Shown piece by piece: positions 1 to 64,000 of a DNA stretch of 64,000 bases. Numbering within the stretch: the stretch's first letter is position 1; each line of letters opens with the position of its first letter. Below the pieces are notes generated by a model. It was not told the origin of the DNA. It did not search any database and saw only the letters and a list, made by a program, of their open reading frames with translations. Location: NCBI GenBank assembly GCA_003024785.1, contig PUQB01000086.1, forward strand, positions 153,962 to 217,961, written 5' to 3'. The position numbers and the translations under genes were made by a program. This stretch comes from Selaginella tamariscina. Taxonomy: Eukaryota > Streptophyta > Lycopodiopsida > Selaginellales > Selaginellaceae.

Positions 1-1205
1 TTTTAGGCCAAAAAGGGTGTTGCAATTCTGTACTTGTGACAGTAGGCCCTTCTAACTCTTGAACAACAGTCTCTCAATAGTCGATCACATGCTTATATAG
101 TTCTGAGTAACCAGTTGCCTTATCAGAATTCTTTGGCATCGATTTTTGAACCCATGCCACATATTTTTTGATGCCATCAATAATAACCTCTTGTTCTTGA
201 GCTGGGCACTCAATGGAATAGGGTCTGATTGTCCTTCTGGGAGAAGTGGCTTTCCATTCTCTCCACTTTTGAAGAGCATTAACCCCTCTTTTGGTAACCA
301 CTCCTGCTCTGATGGCCGTAACTTGTATTGCATAATAGGTATACCATCTCGTATGGAGAAAAAGAATTGTAGCTGCACAAGGTGACCAATTAAAGAATCA
401 CTCCCTTCTTTGATATATTCCTTGAGAATTTTTTTGAAGTCTGGCACCTTAGTCACAAGCAAAGCACAACTTTTTTTAGAGATGCAGTTTTCAAAAAGAT
501 TCATCATATGCGGTAAGGTAAGTGCATTTGTCCTTTTTGTAGAGTTAGAGACCTTACTGAAGAACGCATCAATATCTTCATGAGTGTGACCATAAGAAAA
601 CTGAGTGTGATTGTCTCAAACACACCTTTGGCAACAAGCATTGACAAGTAAGCTAGCACATATCTAGAAAATAAAAGTAAGTATGAGCTTGAGAAACCCT
701 TAAGTAAAATGATTTACCTATTTTTGTTCTCACATGCACAATTATCCATCTGTAAAAGCAAATGACAAGGAAGCTTATTTGATGTTGAGGACACATGTAC
801 ACTATTTGAGCTAGATCCCTCCACTGAACCTGAACTCTCAACAGGGCCATCTTTGTGCAGGCTGCTGACAATGCCTCTCATATTCCCAAGTAGCCTCAAG
901 TGCAACGTGTTCATGAGAGCATTATGTAAAGGTTGAAGGTGTTGTTTCTTCACTTTGAGATCATTGATAGGATGTGTCTGTGAGTGGGCTTCAAGGTTTC
1001 TGAAACACATGGCCAACGACCCAATAGTGAAATTGGAGTCGCTAGACCAATGTGGAAGTGAAAAGTGTCCATATGACTCACAACCGTGTCCATGTGTTAG
1101 CACACCTATCAATGAAATCGGAAGTTTCATGACATTTCCAAGGCACTTTGGTGTTGTAATGAACTTTGAAATGCTGGTCTTTGAATGATCCATCTTGTCA
1201 TGGAT
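1..1205 (-). pseudogene. DUF7869-type transposase-like gene, left copy (C-terminal half)
   Basis: Read right to left, this encodes the C-terminal half of the protein also found at 59.9-63.0 kb. It enters at LIHDKMDHSKT (about 1205) and continues through SLPHWSSDSNFTIGSL and MDNCACENKNR. A 54-bp GT-AG intron follows (664-717). The next exon has the hallmark GHTHEDIDAFFSK (about 595-545), reached through one apparent base deletion, and runs to HPFWPK near position 5. Acidic residues in DKMD, DNC..ENKN and GHTHEDID are spaced as in an RNase-H-like/DDE enzyme; that fold assignment is my inference, the family resemblance is from knowledge. The N-terminal half is missing: at 1205 the reading frame is replaced abruptly by the palindrome array. 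An in-frame stop occurs near 74. The 3' end lies outside the window. This copy is broken, but it shows what is hidden in the gap of the right copy. Confidence 0.72.
664..717 (-). other. Intron in DUF7869-type gene (left copy)
   Basis: A 54-bp intron with donor GTAAATC after ...AATAG and acceptor TTTTCTAG before ATATGTGC. The right copy has the same intron at 61,813-61,866, of equal length. Splicing joins the DNC..ENKN block to an R-Y-x-LAYLS block, as expected for the family. Confidence 0.65.
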
Positions 1206-1625
1206 CAAGGGGGCGGGATTAATCCCGCCCACAACTCTGACGATGGGGAATAGGTGGCGGGATTAATCCCACCACAACTCTCTCCGAAGCTATGATTTCA
1301 AAGAGATCTCAGGATAAATCCTGCCCACAAATATTTAAAATAGGGAAGTGGTGGCGAGATTAATCCCGCCACCCCTTCTCTGCCTCCTAAAATGGTTGGC
1401 GAGATTAATCCCATAAATAACTCTTTTTAATAAATTCAAGTAACTTTTATTAATTAAAAGAGTTATCAGCGGGATTAATCCCGCCGCTCTTTTTAAGAGG
1501 CGGAGAAGCATTGCCCGGACTAATTCTGCCATAGCTATCAAAGAGATGGTGGTGGGATTAATCCCGCCACCTCTTTGAAGAGGCGAAAAAAAATGGCTGG
1601 ATTAATCTCACCGTCCCGGCTAACC
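1206..1625. repeat. Palindrome array, left copy (degenerate)
   Basis: About eight copies of the palindrome GGCGGGATTAATCCCGCC or close variants, spaced irregularly by roughly 25-60 bp. One is perfect (1212-1229). Others differ by one or two bases, for example near 1253, 1355, 1392, 1469 and 1545. The array is the inverted counterpart of 59,095-59,745 and starts exactly where the DUF7869-type reading frame breaks off. Confidence 0.8.
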
Positions 1626-2556
1626 GAGAATATTAAGTTAGAAGTATATTTAAATGGGATAAATCCCTAAAGAAATATATTGTAATCCTAATGCATTCAT
1701 AAATCCCTAAATTCTAAAATTTAAGAGAGAATGTAAGAGAGTGAATCTTTATAAATATATGTAAATTTGTTTATAATACTTACTTGTAAACAGCACTGAA
1801 GGCGCCGTGCTTTCCTATAAACAATAGCGCACATAATTTAATGTCGCTCCTAAGTTGATCACTAAGAAGAAAAAAGAAAATCTGAAGAGTGAAAAATAAA
1901 GAAATAAAGAAACCCTTGCCGGAGAAAGAACTAAATTTGAATTTGAGTGGGAAATTAAATGCATTTTTAAATTTACATGTCAGACTGACAATATTTATGT
2001 CAGAAATTCGAATTTTTTTGAAAATAACAGAAAAGAAAATTTAAGATGAATTGAAACAAATAATCGACAGTCTGACATATATACTCTCCAATTCCAATGA
2101 GTGTTTTAAAATTACATTTAATGTCATTCAAGTGATTCAAGCTGTTTAATATTACAAAATTTTGTAATTATTCTACATTCTTAATATTCAAGTATATATT
2201 ATTAAGTTTATATCATATATATATATACACTAATACAATAAATAAATTGATATATTATTATGTATCATTTAAAATATATTCATAGTTTGTTTATTATTAT
2301 TTTTCTTAATTACTCGAGTAATTAATTTACATTTCCTACTATTAATGGGATATTCTTTATTATTTTCTTAATATTTGAAGAATATTTCAATATTAAACTT
2401 GATTATCATAATTAAATTAATCTTATTCTTAATTATCTCAGTAATTATTCTACATTTGTATATATTAATGGGATTTTTTCAATTAATTTGTTATTATTTC
2501 AAGAATATTCCTATGTTAAACCTTATTATCAATATTAAATTAATATATATGGAGAA
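1626..2556 (-). repeat. AT-rich flank, inverted copy of 58.19-59.08 kb
   Basis: This is the reverse complement of the DNA left of the second palindrome array. Shared landmarks are the GGCGCCGTGCTTTCCT block (1801 here, 58,905 in the other copy), the CTCCGGCAAGGGTTTCTT block and the 'GAATATTC' AT-rich units. Coordinates of matching points sum to about 60,720 throughout. Similarity stops at about 2556, so the left element copy is truncated or rearranged there. No gene seen. Confidence 0.75.
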
Positions 2557-3885: not shown

Positions 3886-5689
3886 AAATCGAGGGTAAGT
3901 CACTATTAAAATATAAGACTTTAATTATTCACATTTTCTTTAAAGGGTCATATAAACATATCAAGATATATTTAAAATATATAAATTGTATTCTAAGTAC
4001 TTTTTAAGATTCAATGTAGTTTGATATATATAATATATTATATATGCAATAGAATTCAAACATGTGTATTATTCATACATTAGTAAAAACCTACTCGTGT
4101 TAGTATATTTTAAAGAGATATCTTAATTAATAATTTAAATTTTATTCCAGCATTGAATAGATGTCGGAGATCTCTATGTATTCTACGACTTAATGTCGTG
4201 CGCACATGAGACATGTCGAACCATAAATGTATATAATAAAAGTTATGTATTATAAACTTTAAGTTCTTAAACTGAGAAAAGCGAGTTTGACTTACTTATA
4301 GTGGATTTAAATTCATGTTTTTATTCAAATAAATATCTATATATTCTTTATATATATATATATATTATATATATAATATTCTGCAGTTTATATTAATTAT
4401 AAGAGATCTAATATAATAAATATATCTTAAGATGGAATAAGCAAACAAATTATTATACTAGGTAAAAATAAAAGCGAAAACTTAACCTTGAGAAGTAATT
4501 AAATCAAATCACAGTAATATTGTACTTTATAAATTCTAAGAACTCTTAATTTTAGTAGTGACATTTATGTTTAAATATAAAAACACCCACTGTTGATTTG
4601 GTAATGTGATTTTAATATATTTGAATATGTTTTGTAATATGTATACATTAATATAATTTTGAATTAAAATATATTTTAAAAGTGTACACAAAGTGTAAAG
4701 TTGTGTTTATGCATATGTACTGTATATATATTAAAACGTGTGGAACTATAAATGTATATGCACTATATATTATATCTATATATATAAATATATATATCAT
4801 TTAGTATATAATACACGTATGTGACCGACCTAAAGATGTGTGTATAAGCAGGTAAGAGAGTGTTTAAAGTAAGAAAAAGACGTAGTTTTGAGAGTGCTTT
4901 AGTATGCATGAGAGAACGTATATTGTATTAAGTGCTGACTAAACCGCCCTACATAAGTCCATATATACGTGTATGTTTAAAAGTATATACAACGTGTAAT
5001 GTGTGTTATGCATATATACTGTATGATAAAACATATTATTAAGACGTGTGGAACTATAAATGTATATGCATTATATATATATATAGAGCATATAACATGA
5101 CCTATGCGTGTGGTGAGAGTGTTTAAAGGAAAAGACGTAGTTTTGAGAGTGCACATATATATATACATTTAGCATATAACATGTGGTGAGAGTGTTTAAG
5201 GGAAAAGACGTAGTTTTGATTTGAGAGTGGCTACCATTCGTATATATGAATACTGTAATGCAGTATTATATATAGAAACCCATTTAAACTACACACTCTA
5301 TCTGGGATTAAATTTAAACACTAATTAAAAATGTTATGCAACTAGTTTTCTTTTGCGCTCTTTGGGTGTAACAAGACATAAACACGTGTTACTATGTTAT
5401 ATTAACTTATCTAGATGTCCGTTTAGGTATAATATATGAAAGCAGTAAGTTAATATAACGTAACAGCATTAATAGTAAGTTAATATAAGATAACAGCATC
5501 AATGAATCAACACACACCAATAGTCATCACACCGAGTGAAATGAGTCCTTACGATCATCCTTTGTGCCACAGCCTTCTTATTAGAAAGAGCAGCACTGCG
5601 TGCAACGAAACCCACCCAACAACCCAACCCATCCCAAAAAAATCTATTTATTAAGCATGATGTGCCTAGGACGATCGTAGAACTTATAC

Positions 5690-5921
5690 GAATGTTATAA
5701 TTAAAATGGGAATGTTTATAATTCCACTTTTTAATAATTAATAATTTTAATCATTTAATTTAATATTTTTTAATATAAAAAAATAATTTTTAAAATAATA
5801 TATTTTTAAAGAAAAAATATTATTTAAAATGTATGTTTAAAATATTAATAATTAATACATAAGTATTAATTAAATTCTTTTCTTTATATTCTCATTTTTA
5901 CTCATTTTAGTTACAACGTTC
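5690..5921. mobile_element. MITE related to the 48.7 kb element
   Basis: A 232-bp AT-rich element without coding capacity. Its terminal inverted repeats of about 20 bp read GAATGTTATAATTAAAATGG on the left and, reverse complemented, GAACGTTGTAACTAAAATGA on the right. The right end, read inward, also matches the sequence starting at 48,722, including the following GAATATAAA and TAATTAATACTTA blocks. It is therefore best read as a non-autonomous derivative of that larger element. I could not define a clear target-site duplication. Confidence 0.65.
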
Positions 5922-6469
5922 ATTTATAAAGGATTAAATTCATGGGAGAAATATTACTAATGCTTGGTGTTGAGGATGAGTCCCCAAGGTGAAACATGTA
6001 CAATCTCAAATGTAAAAAAAAAAAAAAAAAGAATGTACCTGGTGTTTTGTCTTGCTTTTGCAAAATAAAAACCTAAAGTGGGAACTCACATTTATTGCAC
6101 GTGTGGCATGTGTACTCTTGTTCGAAAATGAATAAGAATATTCTTTTTTACTTATTGTTATTTAAGTAAGTTTTGGTATGGTTTGTAGGCATGGTAATTA
6201 ATCTTTTACATAATTTTTTGTGAATTATTATATATAGTGTAATCTTTTTAATTATAGTTATTCAATTGCATACAAAAAATTATTTCAAACATCTTGTACT
6301 TTATTAATAATATTAAAATACATTACATTGTCAGAAATTGAAAATTAATAAATTAAAATTTCATTCCCATTTTAAGGATCAAAATTTCCCTCTTCATAAC
6401 CAATTATTCAATTTCTATCATTGTTTTTAATGGGTTTTTTTCACTATTTTATATGAAAATATAACAAGC

Positions 6470-47152: not shown

Positions 47153-47247
47153 ATCTTAGGAAAGAAAAAGGAGGAAAATGGAAGGAAAAGAATCAAGGAA
47201 AAAAAAGTAGCTGGAAACGAGAGCTATGAAAGCAGTTACTATCAAAC
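47153..47247 (-). other. Retrotransposon leader with presumed primer-binding site
   Basis: 95 bp between the 5' LTR and the gag start. The site next to the LTR reads GTTTGATAGTAACTGC on the minus strand, which I cannot match to a plant tRNA 3' end; it may be decayed. Confidence 0.4.
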
Positions 47248-47761
47248 TGTCAAGCCACGATCCAGGAACCAGGAAGAGCAGGATTCCAAGAAGGAAGGCT
47301 TGACTCAGGAGCAGGATAGGAACAAGACAGGAACTAGGAACTCAGGAGCAAGACAAGACAGGAAGGATCCAGGAGGACAGGAACAGGACTGGATCCAGGA
47401 GCAAGATAGGAACAGGACAGGATCCAGGAGAGACAGAGCAGGAGGCAAAGGAGCAGACAAGACAAGACAAGACAAGAACAAGAATGATCGTAGAATGACT
47501 GGTGTTGATAGTAACTGATTGTACAACAATTAGGTCGGAGCTTTTATGCTCACAACTCCAAGCTAATCTAGTCATGAGTCTAATCTAGTCATGAGCTAAG
47601 AATAGTGTCCCTTATCCTCTAGGCATATCCTGTAGCATATCCTATAGGTATATCCTGTAGGAATATCCTGCAGGCATATCCTGTAACCCGTATCCTGTAT
47701 CCGAAATCCTGCATCATGTATCCTGTATCCGGAAATCCTATATCTGTATCGGGTTGTGACA
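47248..47761 (-). repeat. 5' LTR of the chromovirus
   Basis: 514 bp with the same tips as the 3' LTR. On the minus strand it begins TGTCACAACCCGATACAG and ends GGCTTGACA. The two LTRs differ by several indels in short repeats plus a few substitutions, which points to an insertion that is not brand new. Confidence 0.92.
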
Positions 47762-48720
47762 CCTGTACACTGGCCCTCATGGCGTCTGGGAAGAGGCCAT
47801 CCAATACCTTTCATAACTCTGAGGTAAGGCTCAGCTTGCCAATTCGGACCCCCGGAGTTGGACGCCTTCAATAGCGTCCTAGTGACCACTGCAGCTTCTT
47901 GAGAAGCACCACATCTGGCCTGTAGAGTCCCCAACGACCATTTGTGGCGACCACAGAGGGATAGATAGTACACACAGATGGAGTTCACTGTAGCAAGTAG
48001 AGTGGAGGCCTGAAGAAGAGCCGGGATTAACTCATTCGAACAAATAGAGATTGACGAGCAATAGCTGGCCAGGAAGAATGCGACGGGCCGGCCGAGGGAA
48101 GGTTGGAAGGCGGCAGCGATGCACCTCATCTGTCGCAATCGGTCCCTGCCTCACCTACCCGAGAGAACGACGAAAATGCCGCATGGCCGAATCTCTGAGC
48201 AGCGGTAAAACCCGGCACACCAGCGGCAGAGGCGGTCGCACGCCGTCGACAGCGAAGAAGGATATGAAGGAACAGCAGCACGTCCGGACGACAGCATGGC
48301 AGCATGCGGGTATGAACAGCATTCGGACGGACTTCGCCTGACAATAACCTACGATGCAGGGTGGGATGGATGGCAAGACGACGAAAGCCCTCCGCCCTCG
48401 ATGTAGGTGAAAGTGACGACGAAGAGCCCCACACCAAAGAGCAGAACCAGTGTTTGACGAGTACCCCAAAGGAGGAAACCTCGTGCAGGACAAACCCTAG
48501 GAAAGGGCAGGCCTGCGACGGAGGCAGGAGTCTTGAGGGGGTGAAAGCATTGCGGATAGCGACGGGGGACGTGAGCCGGAAGCCCAACGTGACTAGCGCC
48601 AGAGGGACATAAGGTAGGAAACCCAGGGCCATCGTCACCCACCATGGTGACGCGAGGGCCCGTGTCTGCTGGAAAGAGGAGGAAGCTCATCCGGAAGGCC
48701 CTGCATCGATTGCAACAAGA
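47762..48720. other. GC-rich segment right of the chromovirus
   Basis: Continues the GC-rich DNA interrupted by the retrotransposon. Several overlapping open stretches exist on both strands (for example 48,126-48,690), but their peptides are Arg/Ser/Pro-rich and look compositional. I recognise no domain. It ends abruptly at the terminus of the next element at 48,721. Confidence 0.45.
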
Positions 48721-48746
48721 TGCACGTTGTAACTAAAGTGGGCATG
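48721..48746 (+). repeat. Left terminal inverted repeat
   Basis: Begins TGCACGTTGTAACTAAAGTG and continues GGCATG. It matches the reverse complement of 63,489-63,514 with two differences, and the right end of the MITE at 5921. The following AT-rich 50 bp also resemble the MITE interior. Confidence 0.7.
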
Positions 48747-49007
48747 ATACGTGAAAATGGGAATATAAAATAAATTACTAATTAATACTTAAGTTTTAAT
48801 TATTAATTAATCATTTAATTAATATGTAATTAAGCCTTAAATATTAATTAATTAATTAATTAATCCTTCAATAACCTTACTTAGTAAGGAATATTCCTAA
48901 AATATCTTAGAATATTCATATTATTCTAAAAATAGTTTACAATAATGAAGAAATACTATCAAACATAATTACAAATGAAATCATTTTCTTATCAACATGT
49001 TAATTTT
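48747..49007. other. AT-rich subterminal region
   Basis: Rich in TTAATTAA repeats (48,800-48,865) and the inverted pair GGAATATTCC/GAATATTC (48,890-48,925). Similar GAATATTC units occur at 63,370-63,425 near the other end. Confidence 0.5.
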
Positions 49008-50250
49008 TTATAAATACTTTCTTTCTATCATACAAAGAAATCTTTTCATTTTGTCTAAATCATCACTCTCCGGATTAATCAAATCATTTTGGTCAATATC
49101 TTGATGTTGTTGCCACCACTTAACACTCTCACGAATGCAATTGGGAGTTGCCATCCTTGTTAATACATAAGATGTGATAAGAGAAGGTCTGCATAAAGGC
49201 TCATCTAAAAACTGACGTTCCTTAAGAATAATATTATAAAGCGCCCGGTTGCTATCCTTCATTTTATAAAATTCAATATCACGAGAAAGAAAAGCTTCAG
49301 GAAATGTATGATACGGTGGATACTGCTCACAAAAATTTTCGAGATTCTTCTTTCTGAGGCACGTATCCAAGTAGTTCACTAGCTCATCCATGATATCGGT
49401 ATCAGAATATGGATCGAAAGTGATTGGATGAATACAAGCAATGTTTTGGTTGAGCATAGCCTTCTGAGGAGAGTCGTCTACTACTAAGATATGTGCATTC
49501 TTCGTTATCCTTAAGCGACTGATCTCCCCATGAGTCCCAATTATTCTTTCATTCTTGAAGAAGTATGGCTTGCTTTCCTTTCTTATATTGTGAAATTCGA
49601 GAGGTTTATGACACATTCGCTGGTCAAAAATCCAATCTTTACGAATCACCTCTTCTGCAACACTACAATGTTTCTTAAGTAAATCAACAGCGGTGTTAAG
49701 TTATGAATCTGCATGCATGACCAAATCCCCACAAGCGCACCCATCTCCTTAAGCTTTTGAAAGAGACGATCCAACCCTGGACGAAAAATAATATCATATC
49801 GAAATTTACCATGACAAGGAATGAAATCTCCTTGTTTGATTTCTGTTTTTCTATCCTGGGCCTTTGTCGATGAAGCAGAACACCATTGACATCCAACAAC
49901 ACAATATGGCCATGAGTAACATGAGATAGCGTTGCCTCTTGAATACTTTGCAAATCACTTGTTTGCTCCCTTTCACATTTATCCGTTGCCACTATTCGTT
50001 GCCTATCCCTTCATCATTTAATTGTACATCATCCTTACAAGATTCAGATATTGCATGCGCTGAAGAAATTGATTTCGGAACTGAAGCCAATAAAAATGAT
50101 GATGCAAAAACTGAAGTGGCCCCCATGGTAACGATGTTTTGAGCTGCATTATTATCCATTTCCTGCATGAACTCTGTCATTCTGACATGTGGCACAAGAA
50201 ATTGTCGCCAAACCCCTCTCTTACCTCATGGCAATGCTGAAAATCCATGT
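49008..50250 (-). pseudogene. FCP1/NIF-like HAD phosphatase gene (frameshifted)
   Basis: Domain blocks in order: HIVLLDVNGVLLHR (49,910-49,870), RPGLDRLFQKLKEMGALVGI (about 49,785-49,725), WSCMQIHN, EEVIRKDWIFDQRMCH, and LRITKNAHILVVDDSPQKAM with ITFDPYSDTDIMDELVNYLD (49,530-49,370). This is the layout of FCP1/NIF-type HAD phosphatases, with a motif-1 Asp in LLDVNG and the VDDSP motif. The usual DxDGT second Asp is Asn, as in many plant relatives from memory. A Met-rich, unstructured N-terminus (50,195-49,990) precedes it. Two or three one-base shifts break the frame (near 49,985, 49,850 and 49,690). The C-terminal 213 codons are open. Role in the element unknown; it may be captured host cargo. 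Confidence 0.68.
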
Positions 50251-50451
50251 TCTCAATTATTTCATTACATCTGCAAAATGATAATTAGCTGACCTTAAAA
50301 TTATCAAGGTATATTATTTACCTTGTTAATGTGTGACCCATGTTTGAACTAAAAGCTTCATTAATCCTTGAGAATTTATTTTCTGTACAAATATAAAAAA
50401 ATATACAAAAATGCCTTATGTTACACTCATTTACAACTATTCATCACTCTA

Positions 50452-53400
50452 TCAATTCATTATCAATTCTTCTTCGCTATTACCTTCTGAATGAGGCGAA
50501 GAAGGTCTAAGCCGCTTGTGAGATGGTTCAAGATCTTCTGCATCTTCTATTGATGTTTCCATGGGTCCTGGAGTGTGCGAATGTTCTGTACTCCTCGAGA
50601 TAACTTCCGGTCTAATATCTGATTGATGTTCGTTCTCAGACTCCGAGATTGAACCAGATTCACCTTCAGAGCTATCGCACTTATCTGGAGGGAACTTTCT
50701 CAAATACGCCTTTATGGATCGTTGGGGTACTCAGTTGAGACCCAATCTATCCACTTGTTCAGGTCCTCAACCATGGTCTTATCCTTCTCAACGGCAAACA
50801 CACATGTATGCCGAAGGTAACACTCCTTCAAGACGGACCCCCTAGTGCAGTAGTCAAAAACCCACGCATCACTGTGAGGACCCCTGATCAAGTTGACGAT
50901 GCTCCGTGCCGCTTGACTTGTAATGTTTGGATAACGTACATTGCCGAATACGTCACTCATACCTATCGGTGTATCGGATGGAGGTTCAGGGCCGTTGGAG
51001 TGCAAACAGATGCCTGGCCAGTCATTTGGAAGCTTGAAATTGTTTGGCGCATTCCTAACAACCAAGTGAACAACAGTATCAATGCACTTGGGATTAGCAT
51101 CGTTCATATAAAATCCTGTCCAACGATGTCTATTCTTCTTGGCGAAGGCGAAGGCAAAAGTATCGGTGACATGAGCAAGAATCAAGAAATAAATACCTGA
51201 AAAAGTAGGTATCAGTGAAGAGCGCAAGCATGAATTCAATAATAAATACCTTCTATGTATATGCTTGCACGGCTAAGTTTCTCCACCAGATCCTCTAGTG
51301 CCCTATCTGTCGAAAGATTTTTTGACACCCGCCGATCCATCACGAACAATTGAAACGGTTTCCTACAAGCAGTGATGTTACCCCATAAAGTCTCCGAATC
51401 TAACAACAAACATCTGTAGGGCTTGTCGTGATTCGTAGCATCCTCCTTTATAAGGTTCAATTCGGTTCTCCGCTGCTGAAGGACTGCCATAAGAGAAGGC
51501 GTCATCCCAATGTTCTCCTTTTTGGCGTTGGCGTGCAATAGATTCTTGCCTAGATCTTCCGATTGGTTCACCCATTCGACAAGCATATCATCGTTCGTCA
51601 CATGCAAATATTTGCTACCTCTTCATATGTTGAAGTCGAGGTCCAACCCAGTTTGTGGCAGTGTATTCCCAACCACTCCTTGAAATGCCTGACCGTCTTC
51701 AACTCCATTGCCTTGAGATGAAAAGGAGAGGTTGGGCTGCTGTTATTAATTTGTAGTTTGCCATCGATCACCAAATCAGCCAAGACTTCCATCTCCTCCA
51801 TCGTTGTTCCATTTAAAGGCTTCAACCATGTGAGCTTGAAATCGTTGTCTACATCCTTTGTAGATTGAACAGACTTAGCCTTCGGCGTCTTACTGGGTTT
51901 CTTTGCAGACTTTTCTGAGGGCTCCCCTTCACTTGTCTGCTTCTTCTTCAGTGTTCCTTTTGAAAAGGATTCCATAATCCCCAACCATTTGGCAAAGATC
52001 CTATCTTCGGGGCAAGAAATCAACATCATCAGAAATGATGTTTCCTTCCCGCCCACCTGGGCAAAATCAACTGCTGCAATTTCTTCAACTCTCTGAGGAA
52101 AAAGACAGATTAATATACCGGCGAGATAAATCCCGCCCAAACAATTTGCTTACCCGGTATTCCGCAGATTGTGTATTCCCTGCGGTAGCTCTTTGTGGTC
52201 GCTGAAGAGATTCCCACACGGCTCGCGTGTGTTTAAACTTCTCCCATATTTTGCTGTTGTAGTGGTTGGTGTCGGCAGCGTCCCATTCCGCCGATAACTT
52301 ATGGTACTGCTCGATTGTGAGATTCGGCTTAGCTAAAAACGCCGATCTTTTTGTCAGCTTCTCACGGGTATGCTCGGAAAGTTTTGTTGCCATCGTTCCT
52401 TTGTTGTGTTCATCGAGAAGTCGTTGGGCTGCCGTTATTGTGTGCTGGCCACTAATGATGTAGTACTTGATAGATCTTTTATTCTCCGTCTGAATCTTCA
52501 TGAGTTGTTCTGGTGTTGTGATCCAGACTTTGTCAGCACCCTTCCTTCTTTCATAGTATGGACACAAAACAGCATTATGTGGAACGGTATAAGAATTGTC
52601 GTCCTTCATCTTCTCCATGAGCTCAGCTACACGTTCCTGGTTGAGTGGCCTGTAATTGAAGTTTGGGTTGACGCTGCAATATTTAACCCTACAAGGATAA
52701 ATCTTATCATCCAACATCATTTCCTTGTGACTTATTGCAGCATGAGATGCCACAGGTGCAGCTGACAAAACGATTGATGATTTTCTTTTGCGATCCGAAT
52801 CAACATGTGTGATCCCCGACTGCAGCTGTTCTAGTGTTCTCGGCACACTCTTCCAGCTCCCGAAGCTTCCTAAGCAAATTGAACGTGATCTGTAGAGAAC
52901 CTGAGACCGAGCCACCCTCTCAATCTCCTTATGATGTCGCTGTGTTCTTCTTCAATGTGAAGAGGGAAGATTGCTCCACTTGCTGATTTTCTGTATTGTG
53001 AAGCAATATCTCCTGACAATACACCTACTCGATGAGTCTGAAGATCTTCGAAGTAGACATCCAGATGGATCCCCTCCATAGATGGGCTTTCGTTGAGTTG
53101 AAGAAGAACTCCAAGGTCAACATCATTAGTGAACACGTGAACGTCATTATCCACAAGTCGACAAAACCACCCGAGATTAATGTTGTAACTGACGACCTCT
53201 GGATCCGAGAACGTGACATTGGATGGAACAAGGCATATCTGTCGAGCATCGTCCAATCTGGGTTCGCAGCCTGCTTTCGGGTGCTTGACTAGCGAATCTA
53301 CTTTCCATTGTTTTGCTTGTCCATGAGATGTGACAGAGGTTAATTTGACAGCAACCATGGTTGCTCCAATGCGCTTCCCATTTATCTTAAAATATGGCCA

Positions 53401-53592
53401 AGTTGATTCCAGAATCCCCCTGCCCATCTCTTCTCCTGCTCTTGTCTTTAATGTCACTCAATTCCACATCTGAATACAAAAATGATTAGTTCAAGTATCC
53501 GAGTATAACAGATTTTATTTTAATTCTTACCCAGAATTTGACGACGACTCCATACTAATGACTCGATCTCCTTGTTTGATCAAATCGTCCTT
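50452..53592 (-). pseudogene. ParB-like plus methyltransferase-like gene (frameshifted)
   Basis: A multi-exon gene of roughly 900-1000 codons. A small candidate exon lies at 53,531-53,592 (KDDLIKQGDRVISMES). The N-terminal region (53,457-52,920) is unrecognised. A ParB/sulfiredoxin-like domain follows (about 52,740-52,420): RPLNQERVAELMEKMKDDN, then KYYIISGQHTITAAQRLLDE, matching the V.eL...G...P and GxHR.aA pattern of ParB N-terminal domains. Next is a Lys-rich linker (SEKSAKKPSKTPKAKS). The C-terminal region (51,600-50,710) includes YRCLLLDSETLWGN and then DAWVFDYCTRGSVLKECYLR, FAVEKD, resembling the FxGxG and 'vEkD' end of N6/N4-type DNA methyltransferases, but without a DPPY/DPPW motif. 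An acidic tail (EGESGSISESENEH) ends it. The intron at 52,093-52,153 is clear. One-base shifts occur near 52,900, 51,600 and 50,705. Confidence 0.6.
52093..52153 (-). other. Intron carrying a copy of the element palindrome
   Basis: A 61-bp GT-AG intron joining ..SAEYR to RVEEIAAVDF in phase 0. Its middle reads GGGCGGGATTTATCTCGCCG on the minus strand, a slightly degenerate form of the 18-bp palindrome that fills the arrays. Confidence 0.65.
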
Positions 53593-53695
53593 CTGCAAAA
53601 TAATACACTATAAATATAAATTATATAAAAACGCACACACACTTGTATAAACCCGAATATACAAAAATAATACACAGAGAGAAGTAGACGTAATT

Positions 53696-53782
53696 AACTG
53701 TCCGAAGCTCACATTTGTGTTAGTGCAAAAGAAAGATAACATTTCGTTTTAGAACCACCACAAATGTGAGCTCTGGACAGTT
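53696..53782. ncRNA. Candidate 87-nt hairpin, miRNA-like
   Basis: Two arms of 24 bp pair at 22 positions: 53,696-53,719 (AACTGTCC..GCTCACATTTGTG) with 53,759-53,782 (CACAAATGTGAGCT..GGACAGTT). The only defect is a 2x2 internal mismatch, and the loop is 39 nt. It lies about 100 bp upstream of the first candidate exon of the ParB-like gene. Size and shape fit a plant miRNA precursor or a tiny inverted-repeat element. No expression evidence. Confidence 0.4.
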
Positions 53783-53884
53783 TTACATAGATTCCTAGCT
53801 TTTACTCGAAATATTATGATAAGATGATAAAAGTAAATAAAATGAGATATGCAACTTATATATACTAATACACATATATATTCA

Positions 53885-55465
53885 CATGGAAATTAATCTC
53901 GCCACCCCTTCAATGCCTCCTGAAAGAGTGGGCGGGATTAATCTCGCCACCTTTCTGGAGGCCTTGAACGGGAGTGCGGAATTAATCTTGCCACCCTTCT
54001 CGGTCTCAGAGAGAACTGGGCAGGATTTATTTCTCACACCCCTTCAGTGACTCCAGAAAGGAGGCGGGATTAATCTCGCCCACCATGTAAGGATGGTTAA
54101 ATGAATTTCCCACCCTTCCCAATTCTCTCCATTGGTATGTTGAAAACCTTCTACGTCTCAGACAGAAACGTTTGGGATTGGTCCGACTCACCAATGGAGA
54201 AAAAAGGAAGGGTGGCGGGATTCATTCCTCCAACAGGCATTGAAGACTCGGCGGGATTAATCCCGCCGCCCAGGGCCTTCACTCGGTCCCTATGCGGCGG
54301 GATTAATCCCGCCGGACGCCAATTCCCTGCGCGGAATCGGGCGGGATTAATCCCGCCGCCTAGGCACTTCAGGCAGGCCAATGGCGGCGGGATTCCCGCC
54401 CGATTCCGAGCAGGGAATTGGCGTCCGGCGGGATTAATCCCGCCTCCCAGGCCCTTCACTCGGGCCTTAGTCGGCGGGATTAATCCCGCCGAACGCCAAT
54501 GCCCTGTGCGAAATCTTGCGGGATTAATCCCGCCGCCTAGGCCCTTCAGGCAGGCCAATGGCGGCGGGATAAATCCCGCCCGATTCCGCGCAGGGCATGC
54601 GTACGCGGCGGGATTAATCCCGCCCACCATGTAAGGGATGGTGAAATTAATCCCACCACCCTTCTCAGTTCCCTCCATTGGTATTTTGTAAACCTTCTCC
54701 GTCTCAGACAGAGTTAGTCGGGATTGATTCAACATACCAATGGGGTAATGAAGGTTCGGAGATTAATCTCGCCACCGGGTAATGAAGGTTCGGAGGCTAA
54801 TCCCGCCGCCCTCTCGTAAATCATGCGCTCACACATATATATTGGCTGCGGCATTTTTGAACAGGGATGGGTGGGGGCGGGATTAATCCCGCCGCTTATA
54901 TCCTGCGGAAGTGCCTGAGCGGCGGGATTAATCCCGCCGCCCTCCGCGAAGGGCATGAGCGTGGGGCCGGATTAATCCCGCGTTCATGTCCTGCGTGAAT
55001 TCCCTGGGCGGCGGGATTAATCCCGCCGCTCTACGACAAACAAGAGCGGCGGGATTAATCCGCCGCCCATGGCCTGCGTGAGGGGCCTCGCGGCGGGATT
55101 AATCCCGCCGCCCATCCCTGTAAATGCCCTGCGCGGAATCCGGCGGGATTAATCCCGCCCATTAGAACCTTCACACAGGCCATTGCCGGCGAGATAAATC
55201 CCGCCGCATTCCGCGCAGGGCATGGGTGAGCGGCGGGATTAATCCCGCCGCCGAGGCCCCTCACGCAGGTTATGGGCGGCGGGATGAATCCCCGCTCTTC
55301 GGTTTGTCGTAGAGCGGCGGGATTAATCCCGCCGCCCATAGCCTGCGTGAAGGGCCTCGGCGGCGGGATTAATCCCGCCGCCATGGCCCCAACCATATAG
55401 CGGCGGGATTAATCCCGCCGCCGAGGCTATAAACCTATAGCGGCGGGATTAATCCGCCGCTCGAG
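53885..55465. repeat. Palindrome array 1 of the element
   Basis: About 25 copies of the palindrome GGCGGGATTAATCCCGCC; roughly 15 are perfect, for example 54,250-54,267, 54,296-54,313, 54,340-54,357, 54,427-54,444, 54,607-54,624, 54,921-54,938, 55,092-55,109, 55,232-55,249, 55,362-55,379 and 55,402-55,419. Spacers are mostly 22-40 bp, of a few recurring types (CCCTTCA..GGCC, TGCCCTGCGCGGAATC and inverses), not unique. Copies before 54,240 are degenerate. The flanking blocks CCATTGGTAT..CTTCT..GTCTCAGACAGA at 54,130 and 54,675 are direct repeats. It reads open on both strands only because the palindrome encodes GGINPA in either direction. Confidence 0.93.
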
Positions 55466-55469
55466 GGCT

Positions 55470-56169
55470 TAGCGAGATAAAAACACACACATATATATAT
55501 GTGTGTGTGTATATATATATATATGTATGTATGTATGTATGTATAGGAGTGTACGTGTGTGTGCAAGAGATAGATAAATAAATAAAATTATACAGTACTG
55601 GTACACCTAATATATGTGTGTACATAGGTATATATATGTGTGTATATGTATATCGTGTGTATGCGTGTGAGCGAAACAAATAAAATCATACAGATAAACA
55701 AACACACACACACACATATATATACACAGGAGTGTGCGTGTGTGTGCGAAAGATAAAACTAATAAATAAATAAAATTATACAGATAAACACACACATATA
55801 TATGTGTGTATATAGATATATAATCTATAGAGAAAGAGAGAGAGTCTGTGAATATATAAGCATATATATAAACTAGTGTTGTATGTATGTATATATGTAT
55901 ATAGGTATATATATATGTGTATATGTATATTGTGTGTATGCGTGTGTGAGCGAAACAAATAAAATCATACAGATAAACAAACACACACACACACATATAC
56001 ATACACAGGAGTGTGCGTGTGTGTGCGAGAGATAAAACTAATAAATAAATAAAATTATACAGATAAACACACACATATATATATGTGTGTATATAGATAT
56101 ATAACCCATATGAATATATAAGCATATATATAAACTAGTGTTGTATACTATTTGTTAATATGCATTGAT

Positions 56170-56243
<74 letters not shown>

Positions 56244-56508
56244 GCAGTGTGCGGTGTGTGGAGAGATAGATCAATAAAAAAAAATTTACAGATACTGGTA
56301 CACATAATATATGTATGTATATATGTATATAGGTATATATATATGTGTGTATATGTATATCGTGTGTATGCGTGTGTGAGCGAAACAAATAAAATCATAC
56401 AGATAAACAAACACACACCCACACACACATATACATACACAGGAGTGTGCGTGTGTGTGCGAGAGATAAAACTAATAAATAAATTTATACGCACACTCCT
56501 ATACATAT

Positions 56509-56539
<31 letters not shown>

Positions 56540-56545
56540 GATCTC
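55470..56545. repeat. Microsatellite region with higher-order units
   Basis: Dense CA/TG, TATG and TATA runs, including a pure (TG)n at 56,188-56,240. On a larger scale a unit beginning ATATCGTGTGTATGCGTGTG, then GAGCGAAACAAATAAAATCATACAG, then AGGAGTGTGCGTGTGTGTGC, then AATAAATAAATAAAATTATACAG recurs at about 55,648, 55,928 and 56,357, so the region is a variable satellite with a period near 280 bp. No gene. Confidence 0.85.
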
Positions 56546-56720
56546 ACCTGTGTGCACAGCCGCCGCCGCTGATTTCACAGCCGCCGCCTCTTGAAACCCT
56601 AAGAATATACCTAAACCCTAAAGGAATTAAATATATATATTAACCCTAATAGAATATTCCTTCTGAGAATATACTTAAACCCTAAAAAGAATAAAATATA
56701 GATTCGCCCTAAACGAATAT
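56546..56720. other. Telo-box-like AAACCCTAA cluster
   Basis: GCCGCCGCC blocks (56,560-56,588) are followed by four spaced AAACCCTA/TAACCCTA motifs (56,595, 56,613, 56,642 and 56,673) in a repeat of about 60 bp with GAATATAC. In plants such motifs are common in promoters of growth-related genes; here no gene follows directly. Confidence 0.45.
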
Positions 56721-57519
56721 TTTTTCATTATATTTTAGCGCGTGCGTGTGCGTGGGTGTATCACATACACCTCAAAAATATAAATCATGCAGGGATTTAA
56801 CATGTGTGTGTCCATGAGAGTGTTAAAGTTTCATGTGTATCAATACATACATACACATTGCATATATTAATACACATAATATATACATACACACGTGTAT
56901 ACACACAGACATACACACATATTAGTACATAATATTAGAGAGACCGAGTACATATTATAGATCATGCATGGTGTATATGTTTGAGAGAAGAGAGACAGTA
57001 CATATTAACATGGATCATGCATGGTGTGTATGTATGAGAGAAGACAGAAAGTACACATATATACATACAGAGTACACATATATACATGCACACGTGTATA
57101 CACACAGACATACATACATATTACATGAGTAAATTCATTGTGTTACATATTAGGGTTTAGGGTTTAGGGTTTGCTCCCAACAAGCTTAATATAAATATTA
57201 CACATGTAAATTCAATGTGTTACATACAGTCACACAGATTGAGTACATATATCATACATGCGTTGAACATGATGTTTTCAATAAAGAAGCAACTATTTTC
57301 TTCAGTTTGGTTTAAGGTTGTGCATGTGTGTGCATATGTGTTTTTGTAAGTTCTTGTAATGCGTGTGTAAATTTATGATTGTGTTTATATATGTGTGCAA
57401 AACAAACATCGAATAATTAAGAAAATAATATTAATAAACACACTAGGAACATATTTTAAATTATACATAATAATATATGATTTTATCTAATATATAGCCA
57501 TATATAGTTTTAATAATAT
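56721..57519. other. CA/TA-rich sequence, no gene seen
   Basis: Contains repeats of ATCATGCATGGTGTRTATGT and ACATATATACATRCA (56,960-57,110) and the short interstitial telomere motif listed separately. No coding signal. Confidence 0.5.
57150..57172 (+). repeat. Short interstitial telomere motif (TTTAGGG)3
   Basis: TTAGGGTTTAGGGTTTAGGG followed by TTT. This is the Arabidopsis-type telomere repeat and supports a plant origin. It is too short to be a telomere; it may mark repair of a break or be a telo-box cluster. Confidence 0.85.
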
Positions 57520-58560
57520 ATATTAATTTAATATTGATAAAAAGGTTTAACATTGAAATATTCTTGAAATAATAAGAAATTAATTGAGAAAATCCCATTA
57601 ATATATACAAATGTAAATTAAGTACTCAAATAATTAACTAAATTAATTATCATAATCATGTTTAATATTGGAATATTCTTGGAATAATAAGAAAATAATA
57701 AAGAATATCCCATTAATATAAAGAAGATTAATTACTCAAGTAATTAAGGAAATGATATTAATATATATATTATTAAAACTATATATGACTATATATTAGA
57801 TAAAATGATGTATTATTATGTATAATTTAAAATATGTTCATAGTGTGTATTAATTTAATATTGATAATAAGGTTTAACATTGAAATATTCTTGAAATAAT
57901 AACAAATTAATTGAGAAAATCTCATTAATATATACAAATGTAAATTAAGTACTCAATAATTAACTAATTAATTATCATAATCATGTTTAATATTGAATAT
58001 TCTTGGAAATAATAAGAAAATATAAAGAATATCCCATTAATAAAAGAAGATTAATTACTCAAGTAATTAAGGAAATGATATTAATATATATATTATTAAA
58101 AATATATGACTAATATATTAGATAAAATGATGTATTATTATGTATAATTTAAAATATGTTCATAGTGTGTATTAATTTAATATTGATAATAAGGTTTAAC
58201 ACATGAATATTCTTGAAATAATAACAAATTAATTGAGAAAATCCCATTAATATATACAAATGTAGAATAATTACTGCAATAATTAAGAAACAAGACTAAT
58301 TTAATTATGATAATCAGGTTTAATATTAGAATATTCTTCAAATATTAATAAAATATTAAAGAATATCCATTGATACTAGGAAATGAAAACTAAATACTCG
58401 AGTAATTAAGAAAATAATAATAATAAACAGACTATGAATATATTTTAATGATACATAATAATATATCAATTTATTTATTATATAAGTATATATTTATATA
58501 TATATATATAATATAAATATACTTGAATACTAAGAATGTAAAATATAGTCTAAAAATTTC
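57520..58560. repeat. Tandem AT-rich repeat, about 320-bp unit, three copies
   Basis: Units start near 57,530, 57,857 and 58,177 with TTGATAATAAGGTTTAACAT. They share GAATATTCTTGAAATAATA, GAGAAAATCCCATTAATATA and GTAATTAAGGAAATGATATT. One further diverged unit leads into the region mirrored at 1626-2556. Confidence 0.8.
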
Positions 58561-59094
58561 GTAATATTAAACAGCTTGAATCACTTGAATAACATTAAAT
58601 GCAATTTTAAAATACTCATTGGAACTGGAGAGTATATATGTCAGAGTGTCGGATATTTGTGTCAACTCATTTTAAATTTTATTTTCTGTTCTTTTTAAAA
58701 AATTTGAATTTCTGACATATGTATTGTCGGTCTGACATGTAAATTTGAAAATGCATTTAATTTCCCACTCAAATTCAGATCTGGTTCTTTCTCCGGCAAG
58801 GGTTTCTTCATTTCTGTATTTTTCACTCTTTAGATCTTCTTTTTCTTCATAGTGATCATCTCAGGGGCGAGATTAAATTGGGTGCTATTCTTGATAGGAA
58901 AGCACGGCGCCTTCAGTGCTGTTTACAAGTATTATAAACAAATTTAAAAATACTTATAAAGATTCACTCTCTTACATTCTCTCTTAAAATTACAATTTAG
59001 GGGTTTAGGAATGCATTAGGATTATAATATATTCTGTTAGGGATTTATCCCGTTTAAATATCCTTTTAACTTAATATTCTAGGTTAACCGGGCC
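58561..59094 (+). repeat. Region mirrored at 1.63-2.2 kb
   Basis: Conserved with the left copy in inverted orientation, including CTCCGGCAAGGGTTTCTTCA and GAAAGCACGGCGCCTTCAGT. No frame conserved. It may be the upstream region of the DUF7869-type gene. Confidence 0.6.
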
Positions 59095-59745
59095 GGCGGG
59101 ATTAATCCGGCCATTTCTTTTTGGCCTCTTCGAAGAGGTGGCGGGATTAATCCCGCCACCATCTCCCGGGCAATGCTTCTCCGCCACTGAAAAAGAGTGG
59201 TGGGATTAATCTCGTCGATAACCTTCTCAACTGATGAAGAGTTACCAGAATTTATTAAAAAGAGTTGTCGGCGGGATTAATCCCGCCAACCATTTTAGGA
59301 GGCAGGGAAGGGGTGGCGGGATTAATCTCGCCACCACTTCCCTGTTTAAAGATTTGGGGCAGGATTTATCCCGAGATCTCTTTAAAATCATAGTTTTGGA
59401 GAGAGTTATGTGCGGGTTTAATCCCGCCACCCATTCCCCGTCGTAAGAATTGTGGGCGGGATTAATCCCGCCTTGGACTCCCTCCGACAAGGAAGAGCCG
59501 GGGGATTAATCCCGCCGCCTCTTCCTCCTCGGGGGGAGTCCGGCGGGATTATTCCCGCCGACTCTCTCCGGCGAGGATGAGTCGGCGGGATTAATCCCGC
59601 CGGCTCTTCCTTGTCGGAGGGAGTCCAAGGCGGGATTAATCCCGCCGACTCTCTCCGAAGGGGTTGAGTCGGCGGCGGGATTAATCCCGCCGACCGTTCC
59701 TTGTCAGAGGATTTGTGGGCGGGATTAATCCCGCCCATCAGTTGT
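59095..59745. repeat. Palindrome array 2 of the element
   Basis: Seven perfect copies (59,140-59,157; 59,270-59,287; 59,455-59,472; 59,584-59,601; 59,629-59,646; 59,674-59,691; 59,718-59,735) and about seven variants. The spacers, including CTCTCTCCG and CTTCCTTGTCGGAGG, differ from array 1. It ends about 140 bp before the start codon of the DUF7869-type gene, so it could act as its upstream control region. Confidence 0.92.
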
Positions 59746-59886
59746 ATTAATCAAACATGAGATATTATTCTAAACATAATTATGTATTATTGCATATGCA
59801 TATTATTAAGTAACCGTAATTCAGATTTCTTAGAAATATTGCATAAACAGATATCAAAATAATACAATTATTTATGTGCAGGACAT

Positions 59887-62800
59887 ATGTTTAATACTGG
59901 AGATAAAGTATGTCTTCTTCGGAACAACGAGATAGTTGGCACTGGAACTGTGGAAGTTCGAGATAATAATGCATCATGTCACAATATTGCCCAAGGATCT
60001 TGTGTGTACGTATGGGTGAACACCATTACAAGTATGTGATTCTGGGAATGGAATTTGAGGAGGTTCTCCTGTATTGTGGAATTTGGATGAAGTCAAGGCT
60101 GACACAGAATATGCAGAGTCACAAACAAATAGTAGCACGAGTTTTACCAGATGATGGCTTGCCTGCTGTAATAGATGAGGTGATTCTCTTTCTTCGTGAG
60201 ATTGAAGTCAGAAGAGGCATCATCACAGCTATAAATCCAATGGAGCAGTGTCAGAAGAGAAACTAGGTCCGACTTCGTGGGTGTAGTTGTGACAGAGGTT
60301 TCACCTAATGGCACATTGTATCCTGGATCCCTCGTGAGGTGGCGAACATCTGAATTAAGACGCAAGATGGTTCAACATATTCTGGTTGGATTTCATAATA
60401 ACAACCCGGAGAACAACTTATATTTGAAGAGGTTCCTTGCATTGGTCCTATTGTAAGAAAAAGGCGATTCATGGGTTTAGATCTTCCCCTGCAAGTTTCA
60501 GCAAGAGGGTAAAGATGGATCCTACATCTTCCGAAAGTGTTACGAGCATTTCCACGATTGACTGTTGCAAGAAGAAGTGTTGTCAGATGGCAGACCGGAA
60601 TGAAATTACCCAATGTAGACATGTCTTCGTATGCTCACCCAAAAAGCAAAGGCATGAGTTTGTATATCTGCACTAACTGGGTGTATTGATGGAATGGCCC
60701 TCGGACACAGGTTTCAGAGTACATCCATGGTATTTAATAAGGTGCCATCTGCTTCAAAGCTTGGTACAGTATATACGGATCCCAAAGACCAGTTCTACCG
60801 TCGGAGGGTGAGTGGCTAGATGGAGCGCGAACCTCAGTTCATGGGAACACTGGCTTGGTCAAAACCCGCTCTCACATCATGGCAGCCATAGAGATACTCA
60901 AAGGCTTTTGTGGAAGCAAATGCAGACAGGATGCCTCACAAATGCCAAACCACAAATGCAGGGGTCAGGGAAAATCTCAAGGTTTTTACCTTCAATCTAC
61001 ACTCAATTGAAACTGTGTGAACATGTGAACAAGTGCCTCAGTTTGATGGGGCTCCAAGCAATCTGCACTGGTACCTTCAACAACATATGGAATACTCATT
61101 TTAAGGATGTGGAGATTGCAAAACACTCTAGCTTTTCTAAGTGTGACACTTGTACATCATTGAAGGCTGCAGAGGCTTGTGCAAAAACCTTGGTGGAGAT
61201 CACTACCATTCAAAGGAAGATGGAGGCCCACATGATTGCACACAAACTTGCCGGTCTCAGTACTATGCACACCGCATGCTTTCTGTGTCACGCCCATCAG
61301 AGTACCTGTGCTTGATCCATGACAAGATGGATCATTCAAAGACCAGCATTCCAAAGCTCTTTGCAACACCAAAGTGCCTTGGAAATGTCATGAAACTTCC
61401 GATTTCATTGACAGGTGTGCTAAACACATGAACACGGTTGTGAGTCATATGGACACTTTTCACTTCCACATTGGTCTAGCGACTCCAATTTCACTATTGG
61501 GTCGTTAGCCAATGTGTTTCAGAAACCTTGAAGCCCACTCACAGACAAGTCCTATCAGTGATCTCAAAGTGAAGAAACAACACCTTCAACCTTACATAAT
61601 GCTCTCATGAACACATCTGCACTTGAGGCTACTTGGGAATATGAGAGGCATTGTCAGCAACCTGCACAAAAAAACAGATGGCCCTGTTGAGAGTTCAGGT
61701 TCAGTGGAGGGATCTAGCTCAAATAGTGTACATGTGTCCTTAACATCAAATAAGCTTCCTCGTTCATTTGCTTTTTACATATGGATAATTGTGCAGGCGA
61801 GAACAAAAATAGGTAAATCATTTTACTTAAGGGTTTCTCAAGCTCATACTTACTTTTATTTTCTAGATATNNNNNNNNNNNNNNNNNNNNNNNNNNNNNN
61901 NNNNNNNNNNNNNNNNNNNNNNNNNNNNNNNNNNNNNNNNNNNNNNNNNNNNNNNNNNNNNNNNNNNNNNNNNNNNNNNNNNNNNNNNNNNNNNNNNNNN
62001 NNNNNNNNNNNNNNNNNNNNNNNNNNNNNNNNNNNNNNNNNNNNNNNNNNNNNNNNNNNNNNNNNNNNNNNNNNNNNNNNNNNNNNNNNNNNNNNNNNNN
62101 NNNNNNNNNNNNNNNNNNNNNNNNNNNNNNNNNNNNNNNNNNNNNNNNNNNNNNNNNNNNNNNNNNNNNNNNNNNNNNNNNNNNNNNNNNNNNNNNNNNN
62201 NNNNNNNNNNNNNNNNNNNNNNNNNNNNNNNNNNNNNNNNNNNNNNNNNNNNNNNNNNNNNNNNNNNNNNNNNNNNNNNNNNNNNNNNNNNNNNNNNNNN
62301 NNNNNNNNNNNNNNNNNNNNNNNNNNNNNNNNNNNNNNNNNNNNNNNNNNNNNNNNNNNNNNNNNNNNNNNNNNNNNNNNNNNNNNNNNNNNNNNNNNNN
62401 NNNNNNNNNNNNNNNNNNNNNNNNNNNNNNNNNNNNNNNNNNNNNNNNNNNNNNNNNNNNNNNNNNNNNNNNNNNNNNNNNNNNNNNNNNNNNNNNNNNN
62501 NNNNNNNNNNNNNNNNNNNNNNNNNNNNNNNNNNNNNNNNNNNNNNNNNNNNNNNNNNNNNNNNNGAGATTGAAATGAATCACTGAGCATAGACGACATA
62601 GAAGCCAGTAGTGATGTGGAAGTGCAAACCCCACACTTTTTGGACAAAGGAACCAAAAACCTAAAGCATACTTTGATTGTTGCCAGGATCTTCAAAAACT
62701 AATGATGGTTCTCATTACTCTAGATGCGTCATATAATCAGCCTATTTGGATGGGTCAAATTATCGACACACCTGAAGTAATCACAAAAAATAGTATTGTT

Positions 62801-63010
62801 AAGGTTGCATGGTTCAAACCACAAAAAAGGCGACACGAGAAGGAGAGCGAAAGATATAATGGATGCCTAGAGAAAACATGGTCTCCCAATCAAAAAGACC
62901 CAGCATGTTTTATAAATGTTAAATCCATTCGATATGGGTGGATGTCAAGAAGTGTTGATAAAGTCACGATTAATAAAACTGCAAGGGAATGTATGTTTTC
63001 TGAAGCTTAA
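59887..63010 (+). pseudogene. DUF7869-type transposase-like gene, right copy (frameshifted, gapped)
   Basis: The start is taken at 59,887 (MFNTGDKVCLLRNNEIVGTG), the N-terminal block with CVYVWVNTI. Following frames give LVRWRTSELRRKM (60,330), then SRSTF-type sequence FNNIWNTHFKDVEIAKHS (61,085), FSKCDTCTSLKAAEACAK, LIHDKMDHSKTSIPKLF (61,315), LPISLTGVL, GHGCESYGHFSLPHWSSDSN and then NKNR. A 54-bp intron follows (61,813-61,866). The GHTHEDID part falls in the assembly gap. The C-terminus (62,600-63,010) reads QPIWMGQIIDTPEV, KVAWFKPQK and stops at 63,008. DUF7869 proteins are widespread in plant and animal mobile elements; I infer it moves the element. At least five one-base shifts interrupt it as assembled. 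Confidence 0.7.
61871..62565. other. Assembly gap (695 N)
   Basis: A run of N inside the DUF7869-type gene. The left copy at 1-663 covers the homologous sequence, about 660 bp. Confidence 0.99.
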
Positions 63011-63488
63011 AGCAATTACAAAATTATAAAATATCATATATTTAATATTCATAATTATTATAAACTCTTTAATAATAGTACAAATTGTATACTTAACTAT
63101 ATAAATTTAAAAAATGATATGGAAGATTGACTATATTATTATAGGATTTTATATATATATTATTACTACTACAAATTTTTAATTAATAATGTTATATTTA
63201 AATATTAATATTTTAATAACAACATCAATATTTATATAATGTACCTCTTATGCTCTTCCTTAATTGTTATATTAGGCAATATATTATATAATTTAATACC
63301 TTCTACTTTTATAATGTTATTAATTTTTTTTCAATGAATGCTATAATTTATTAAAGGGTAGAATACAAAATAGAATATTCTAAAGAATATTCTATTTTAA
63401 ACATATATTCTAAAGAATATTCCTTTAATATTAGAAAATGCTAATTAAATAGCTAAAATTGCTAATTATTAGGAAATGGGACTATAGC
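63011..63488. other. AT-rich right subterminal region
   Basis: No gene. Contains GAATATTCTAAAGAATATTC inverted units at 63,370-63,425 and short AT-rich repeats, similar in style to the left subterminal region. Confidence 0.5.
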
Positions 63489-63514
63489 CATGCCCATTTT
63501 AGTTACAACTTGCA
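63489..63514 (-). repeat. Right terminal inverted repeat
   Basis: The minus strand begins TGCAAGTTGTAACTAAAATG and continues GGCATG, pairing with 48,721-48,746 at 24 of 26 positions. Confidence 0.7.
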
Positions 63515-64000
63515 TTAAGGGTGGTGCGAAATGACCCTTAAACAATGACCCGAAGATAAATGGTGTAAGAATGCCTACTTGTCAATTACACTCACCTAAC
63601 CATGAGTTAATACCCAACCTTCTTAATCACAATGTTTTATAATCACATAATATGTTATTGTAAAATCCATACCTTTAACTAAAAATCATCAATTATTACA
63701 ATATCCCTAGGTGGTTGTCATACATGGTTGCCATATCCACTAGGTAAGTGTGAAAGAACACAATCACCATGGCACTATTACCAATGCTCATGTGACTATC
63801 CACATATCTTGGTCATGGTTCACTTGGAGGATTGATGCATGTTTCTAAACAATGTAAGAATTAATATGTTACACTTTGTGTATATATGTGAAATTACTAA
63901 CAATGGAATGTGAAACAAGTTTCATTTAAATTAAGCTTTTACATTTAAAGGATAATCACAATTAGTGAAGTTGCACTTGAGAGAGGTGTGAATACTAAAT
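63515..64000. other. Flanking DNA, nothing recognised
   Basis: Ordinary AT-rich sequence with no conserved frame, repeat or RNA gene that I can support. Confidence 0.5.

Follow-up and report, generated by a model that had tools for sequence, protein, structure and literature searches.

A probable decayed giant DNA transposon with three genes and palindrome arrays in Selaginella tamariscina

A stretch of 64,000 nucleotides from the Selaginella tamariscina genome (contig PUQB01000086.1, positions 153,962 to 217,961 of the forward strand; referred to as the window, in whose coordinates all positions are given) contains at 48720-63515 a 14.8-kb unit that is interpreted here, with a probability of roughly 0.7, as the decayed remains of a giant DNA transposon of the cut-and-paste kind, which most likely is Sola-like. 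The presence of a giant DNA transposon bounded by these ends, as had been proposed in a preliminary description of this DNA, is well supported because the ends show end-specific homology to a miniature inverted-repeat transposable element (MITE), a 4-bp duplication fits two insertions, and the unit encodes a protein of predicted transposase fold; the interpretation as a whole is supported in part. The three genes of the element may have moved together, and the label Sola, which was set by the described features of that superfamily, is a provisional one. The ends of the element and the related MITE lie as follows.

48716..48719, no strand: left target-site duplication, CAAG; 3 of 4 positions agree with the right side
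48720..48745, forward strand: left terminal inverted repeat, 26 bp (sequence comparison and pattern count)
63490..63515, reverse strand: right terminal inverted repeat, 26 bp (sequence comparison and pattern count)
63516..63519, no strand: right target-site duplication, TAAG (boundary comparison)
5688..5923, no strand: MITE of 236 bp with both element ends, inverted relative to the element and flanked by TTAT/TTAT

The two terminal 26-mers are inverted with respect to each other and differ at two positions, and a pattern spanning both matched twice in the 64-kb window versus never in 100 dinucleotide shuffles. The inverted termini described earlier are therefore real, but the ends then given, 48721 and 63514, were each one base off. 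An A located six bases outside GTTGTAAC (GTTATAAT at one end) is common to all four ends of the element and the MITE, and placing the boundary at this A yields flanks of TTAT/TTAT for the MITE and CAAG/TAAG for the element, such that 7 of 8 positions of a 4-bp duplication agree across the two insertions. The tetranucleotide TGCA, five bases inward, was rejected as the duplication, as it agrees at 4/4 positions in the element but at 1/4 in the MITE.

The MITE, whose occurrence elsewhere in the window with the same termini had been reported correctly, also resembles the element beyond the termini. Past the first 30 bases, its 5923 end matched the left end of the element (score 58 versus a maximum of 53 in 200 shuffles), and its 5688 end matched the right end (score 62 versus a maximum of 57), while the wrong pairings stayed within the shuffles (42 versus 55 and 43 versus 50); the shuffles were mononucleotide ones, and in such AT-rich sequence the margin is modest. 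These end-specific subterminal matches indicate that the left and right ends of the 14.8-kb unit form a pair, and the MITE appears to be a relative of the element shortened by internal deletion. Three genes lie between the ends, and a second partial copy of the element is situated at the window edge.

59863..63010, forward strand: DUF7869 transposase gene in pieces, with a gap of Ns at 61871-62565 and an apparent intron at 61813-61866
50450..53560, reverse strand: ParB-like/methyltransferase-like gene; limits by eye, domains by motif only
52870-53457, 52085-52951, 51598-52149, 51236-51622 and 50712-51272, reverse strand: open reading frame (ORF) pieces of the ParB-like gene
49008..49960, reverse strand: FCP1/NIF-like haloacid dehalogenase (HAD) phosphatase gene; ORF 49008-49700 plus upstream pieces by eye, with a frame break near 49.70 kb
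1..2550, reverse strand: second partial copy, internally deleted, with DUF7869 pieces at 85-615 and 714-1262 and six palindromes at 1212-1612

The transposase gene is a member of DUF7869 (PF25273), a family whose Pfam entry gives no function and of which the literature searched made no mention. DUF7869 was the sole Pfam family found for the transposase pieces; pieces of the second copy matched it with E values of 1e-14 and 6e-12, and a joined query found 207 homologues, including two named from the liverwort Riccia among the 120 listed, which bears out the earlier family assignment. The homologue P0001, 46% identical to the joined query, is predicted to adopt an RNase H transposase/integrase-like fold, based on comparison of its predicted structure by VIA-align. 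Acidic positions are conserved in DUF7869, the third residue of the triad being a candidate, and the predicted P0001 fold is that of a DDD transposase of RNase H type. In this way a structural model would link a family to which Pfam assigns no function with a transposase fold. The gene is interrupted by 695 bases of N (61871-62565), and all three element genes contain frame breaks, features that were absent from the preliminary description.

The second copy, an inverted partial one as reported earlier near 1-2556, matches the element at 660-1209 (versus 61870-61311, 94.8%) and at 1212-2545 (versus 59472-58170, 87.4%). It has no equivalent of about 59473-61310 and extends past the window edge, so that neither terminus is visible. 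Divergence between the copies amounts to 17/549 positions in the coding piece and intron versus 114/1291 in the array and non-coding stretch. Frame breaks are present in both copies. Several of the differences between 61311-61870 and 660-1209 are one-base indels, possibly errors of long-read assembly. Either both copies are dead, or the assembly contains many one-base errors.

The element also contains two arrays of a single palindrome.

53931..55459, no strand: array A, 25 palindrome sites, upstream of the ParB-like gene
59095..59735, no strand: array B, 13 palindrome sites, ending about 0.13 kb upstream of the transposase (DUF7869) frame
52120..52137, no strand: degenerate palindrome within what looks like an intron of the ParB-like gene
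55469..58513, no strand: microsatellite block and AT-rich direct repeats separating arrays A and B

The 18-bp palindrome GGCGGGATTAATCCCGCC occurs at 45 sites in the 64 kb with up to three mismatches (23 are exact), namely 25 in array A, 13 in array B, six in the second copy and one in the apparent ParB-like intron. The two palindrome arrays recognized previously thus comprise 38 sites of one palindrome, and palindromes in general are abundant in the element (119 versus at most 28 in 20 shuffles). Over the 38 array sites, conservation reaches 1.75 bits per position within the palindrome versus 0.23 and 0.22 in the 26 bases flanking it on either side. Of the 33 intervals shorter than 100 bp, 21 measure 44-46 bp. 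Some neighbouring units have been copied as larger blocks (e.g., 54249-54393 versus 54426-54570, 91%), and tandem duplication contributed to building the arrays. Across all sites the palindrome alone is constant, as is expected of a putative binding site. The two main genes, ParB-like and DUF7869, are divergent, each with an array upstream, and array A starts about 0.4 kb upstream of the first ATG of the ParB-like gene, as located by eye. Such dense arrays, one near the start of each main gene, give the element a concrete part that can be tested.

The ParB-like gene runs opposite to the transposase gene; it contains short GT-AG introns, and its frame is broken at least once. Inspection by eye found a ParB-like motif, RPLNQERVAELMEKM..IISGQHTITAAQRLL, and a sequence resembling methyltransferase motif I, VFDYCTRGS..FAVEKD. 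The putative product would thus recall bacterial proteins that bind and mark DNA. The FCP1-like gene noted earlier was confirmed once one frame break was read through (Pfam NIF, E 3.1e-11, 43.7 bits versus a gathering score of 21.8); its unbroken piece alone falls under the gathering cut-off (E 0.0081, 16.3 bits). PDB matches of this gene to p27/CDKN1B were rejected as weak (best E 0.038 for the joined sequence and 0.072 for the piece).

The Sola superfamily is characterized by a DDD transposase, 4-bp duplications, terminal inverted repeats of 11-1124 bp and sizes that are mostly 2-9 kb but exceed 15 kb in some cases; it occurs in the moss Physcomitrella and is uncommon in flowering plants (PMC10741241). 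In Sola2 elements the 4-bp duplications are AT-rich (PMC3627910). The Selaginella element shares a predicted DDD-type transposase, a putative 4-bp duplication, terminal inverted repeats and size with these elements (PMC10741241, PMC3627910, PMC9033089), its 26-bp repeats falling inside the range reported for Sola. As it fits the features of Sola by description, it is called Sola-like.

The closest precedent is Sola1-1_Ec32 of the brown alga Ectocarpus, a giant Sola-1 DNA transposon of 21.5 kb with a ParB-like and N4C/N6A DNA methyltransferase gene opposite the transposase strand (PMC12477816). The comparison is one of descriptions, of gene content and layout: both elements are giant and have a ParB-like/methyltransferase-like gene, recognized here by motif, opposite the transposase, but the FCP1-like gene and the palindrome arrays of the Selaginella element are not mentioned in the accessible text on the algal one (PMC12477816). 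The naming of the ParB-like/methyltransferase-like gene is plausible by analogy because this published transposon pairs these domains opposite its transposase. As to the earlier remark that no described plant transposon with this gene set was known, a ParB and methyltransferase pair opposite a transposase has a precedent in Ectocarpus, while the FCP1-like gene, the palindrome arrays at both gene starts and the DUF7869 fold find no mention in the literature covered, as far as it was accessible. The Selaginella element would extend the ParB-methyltransferase type of giant transposon from algae to a land plant, a host type that is also suggested by the introns, the Gypsy element with a chromodomain in the window and the relatives from Riccia.

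A working model can be proposed for the intact element. The DUF7869 protein would act as a DDD/E transposase of RNase H fold, cutting at the 26-bp inverted repeats and producing a 4-bp duplication when the element inserts. The ParB-like/methyltransferase-like protein would be an accessory protein. It would recognize the 18-bp palindromes in both arrays, the one where its own gene starts and the one where the transposase gene starts, and would thereby mark or regulate element DNA, for instance to counter silencing by the host; the methyltransferase-like part would serve in marking. The FCP1-like protein may be a second accessory product or could derive from a captured passenger gene. The reader of the palindromes is most likely an element protein, and the ParB-like one is favoured because the larger array stands at its gene, because one site lies inside the gene, and because ParB proteins bind palindromes. 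If an element protein does bind the palindromes, this would be a transposon that recognizes and marks itself, and the role of transposon-borne methyltransferases would become directly testable.

VANDAL transposons possess a different transposase, of the Mutator-like element (MULE) kind, and are not known to encode a ParB/methyltransferase protein. In Arabidopsis, the VANDAL-encoded VANC protein causes the elements to lose DNA methylation along their whole length, and its targets are frequently tandem repeats that differ among related elements (PMC5735166). The likeness lies in an accessory protein combined with repeated target motifs (PMC5735166), which makes VANC the best analogy for palindrome function and anti-silencing a hypothetical role for the Selaginella arrays. 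In a quite tentative extension of the model, the ParB-like/methyltransferase-like protein would bind the arrays in the manner of parS sites and mark element DNA as self, keeping both promoters open, and each DUF7869 transposon family would have a palindrome of its own.

That families may differ in their palindromes is suggested by a distant contig, L001 (4.3 kb), which is filed under a cyanobacterial (Synechococcales) metagenome assembly and is perhaps from a contaminating eukaryote. At 34-4091 this contig holds a 963-residue reading frame, its only ORF exceeding 160 residues, with DUF7869 similarity and 30% identity to P0001, together with seven copies of a 21-bp palindrome unlike the 18-bp one around that frame (at most three in 40 dinucleotide shuffles), the motif having been picked after inspection of inverted repeats. 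A further control, in which motifs were chosen freely and the shuffles were mononucleotide ones, gave six further sites versus 0-1 in 20 shuffles. The general palindrome count of this contig showed no excess (6 versus at most 9 in 30 shuffles). Another contig, L002, filed under a Bacteroidetes metagenome genome, holds a DUF7869 relative and, near the contig end, duplicated GTGTTCG/CGAACAC palindromes (3268-3417 and 4986-5146). Its four sites in the repeated-palindrome test were within the shuffles (at most five), and its general count was barely in excess (9 versus at most 8 in 30 shuffles). Among nine control stretches, one (20000-24327 of the window, with a TA/CA-rich motif) gave 8 sites versus at most 5 in shuffles, and the others gave 0-3.

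Several observations weigh against the reading as a Sola-like transposon with a ParB-like reader of its palindromes. The target duplication of the element carries one mismatch (CAAG versus TAAG), the GC content of the flanks is unequal (0.594 at 48220-48719 versus 0.33 at 63516-64000), and within the 64-kb window there is only one full-length copy and a search for an empty site found none. Coding substitutions between the two copies (3/17 synonymous, p 0.83) show no sign of selection. The Sola likeness is drawn from descriptions of Sola rather than from protein comparison, which makes the label indirect. A PDB search by Foldseek alone returned nothing at E <= 0.001, and middling VIA-align Z values may reflect a common arrangement. 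The expected DPPY place, where N6/N4 methyltransferases carry this tetrapeptide, is occupied by DRRV. The names ParB-like and methyltransferase-like, given earlier from motifs seen by eye, were not borne out by searches of Pfam, NCBIfam, PHROGs and PDB, which returned no ParB or methyltransferase match and weak, unrelated ones only, or by protein searches with this gene, which returned none at E 0.001 (7508 candidates) or at E 0.1 (747 candidates).

The unrelated matches rejected for this gene were Pfam IL31 (0.059) and DUF658 (0.072), PHROG 21535 (0.1), NCBIfam intein_Nterm (0.084) and PDB 4x1j (0.93). PDB 6xr1 (dTor_9x57R), at E 9e-7 for the methyltransferase piece, was rejected because its score adds up nine repeat matches, each worth 2.3-3.2 bits. 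Comparison with phages by tblastn gave no match at E 10, the single IMG/VR match to the ParB-methyltransferase pattern was judged no relative, and the annotations of two phage genomes name no such gene among the entries listed. A single-sequence structure model of the protein was unusable (predicted local distance difference test, pLDDT, 37), and nothing was drawn from it.

According to the strongest alternative, which is possible though doubtful, the DUF7869 gene and the ends make up the transposon proper, the ParB-like and FCP1-like genes are captured passengers that play no role in transposition, and the palindromes are binding sites of the transposase or of a host protein. The FCP1-like gene comes from an ordinary eukaryotic family (Pfam NIF) and has no palindromes near it, and in L001 palindromes accompany a DUF7869 gene as the sole sizeable ORF, so that they may go with the transposase, which is a serious rival to the ParB-like protein as palindrome binder. 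However, L001 is so short that the absence of a neighbouring gene means little, the 25-site array lies upstream of the ParB-like gene with a further site inside it, and the brown algal element, as described in the accessible text, pairs the same genes. It is unlikely that a fragment of an old mobile element was enclosed by chance, along with host genes, between two unrelated terminal repeats of a MITE family; such a composite would fit the single full-length arrangement visible and the sharp GC difference between the flanks, but the different, end-specific subterminal sequences match the two MITE ends, and each of the two main genes has the same palindrome upstream. That the unit is an integrated virus or derives from one, as a Maverick/Polinton or a remnant of a giant virus, is highly improbable and was already disfavoured: large DNA viruses also possess ParB-like and methyltransferase-like genes and the size would suit, but no polymerase, capsid or packaging family was found among eight pieces searched against Pfam and eight against PHROGs, none of 54 IMG/VR pattern matches was confirmed as a DUF7869 relative, and the BFVD viral structure library gave no match at E <= 0.001.

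The element, read as a transposon, is placed at a sharp compositional border between a GC-rich left and an AT-rich right flank. Elsewhere in the window lies an inverted duplication of roughly 12 kb (3372-16219 versus 24822-36982), about 80-90% identical in pieces. Its repeated pieces contain FGDSLSDPGN, which we take to be a GDSL-lipase-like motif; three pieces of the duplication matched no Pfam family at E 0.001. A Ty3/Gypsy retrotransposon with a chromodomain and broken reading frames occupies 41670-47761 and is bounded by repeats resembling long terminal repeats (41670-42222 and 47248-47761) that are about 90% identical.
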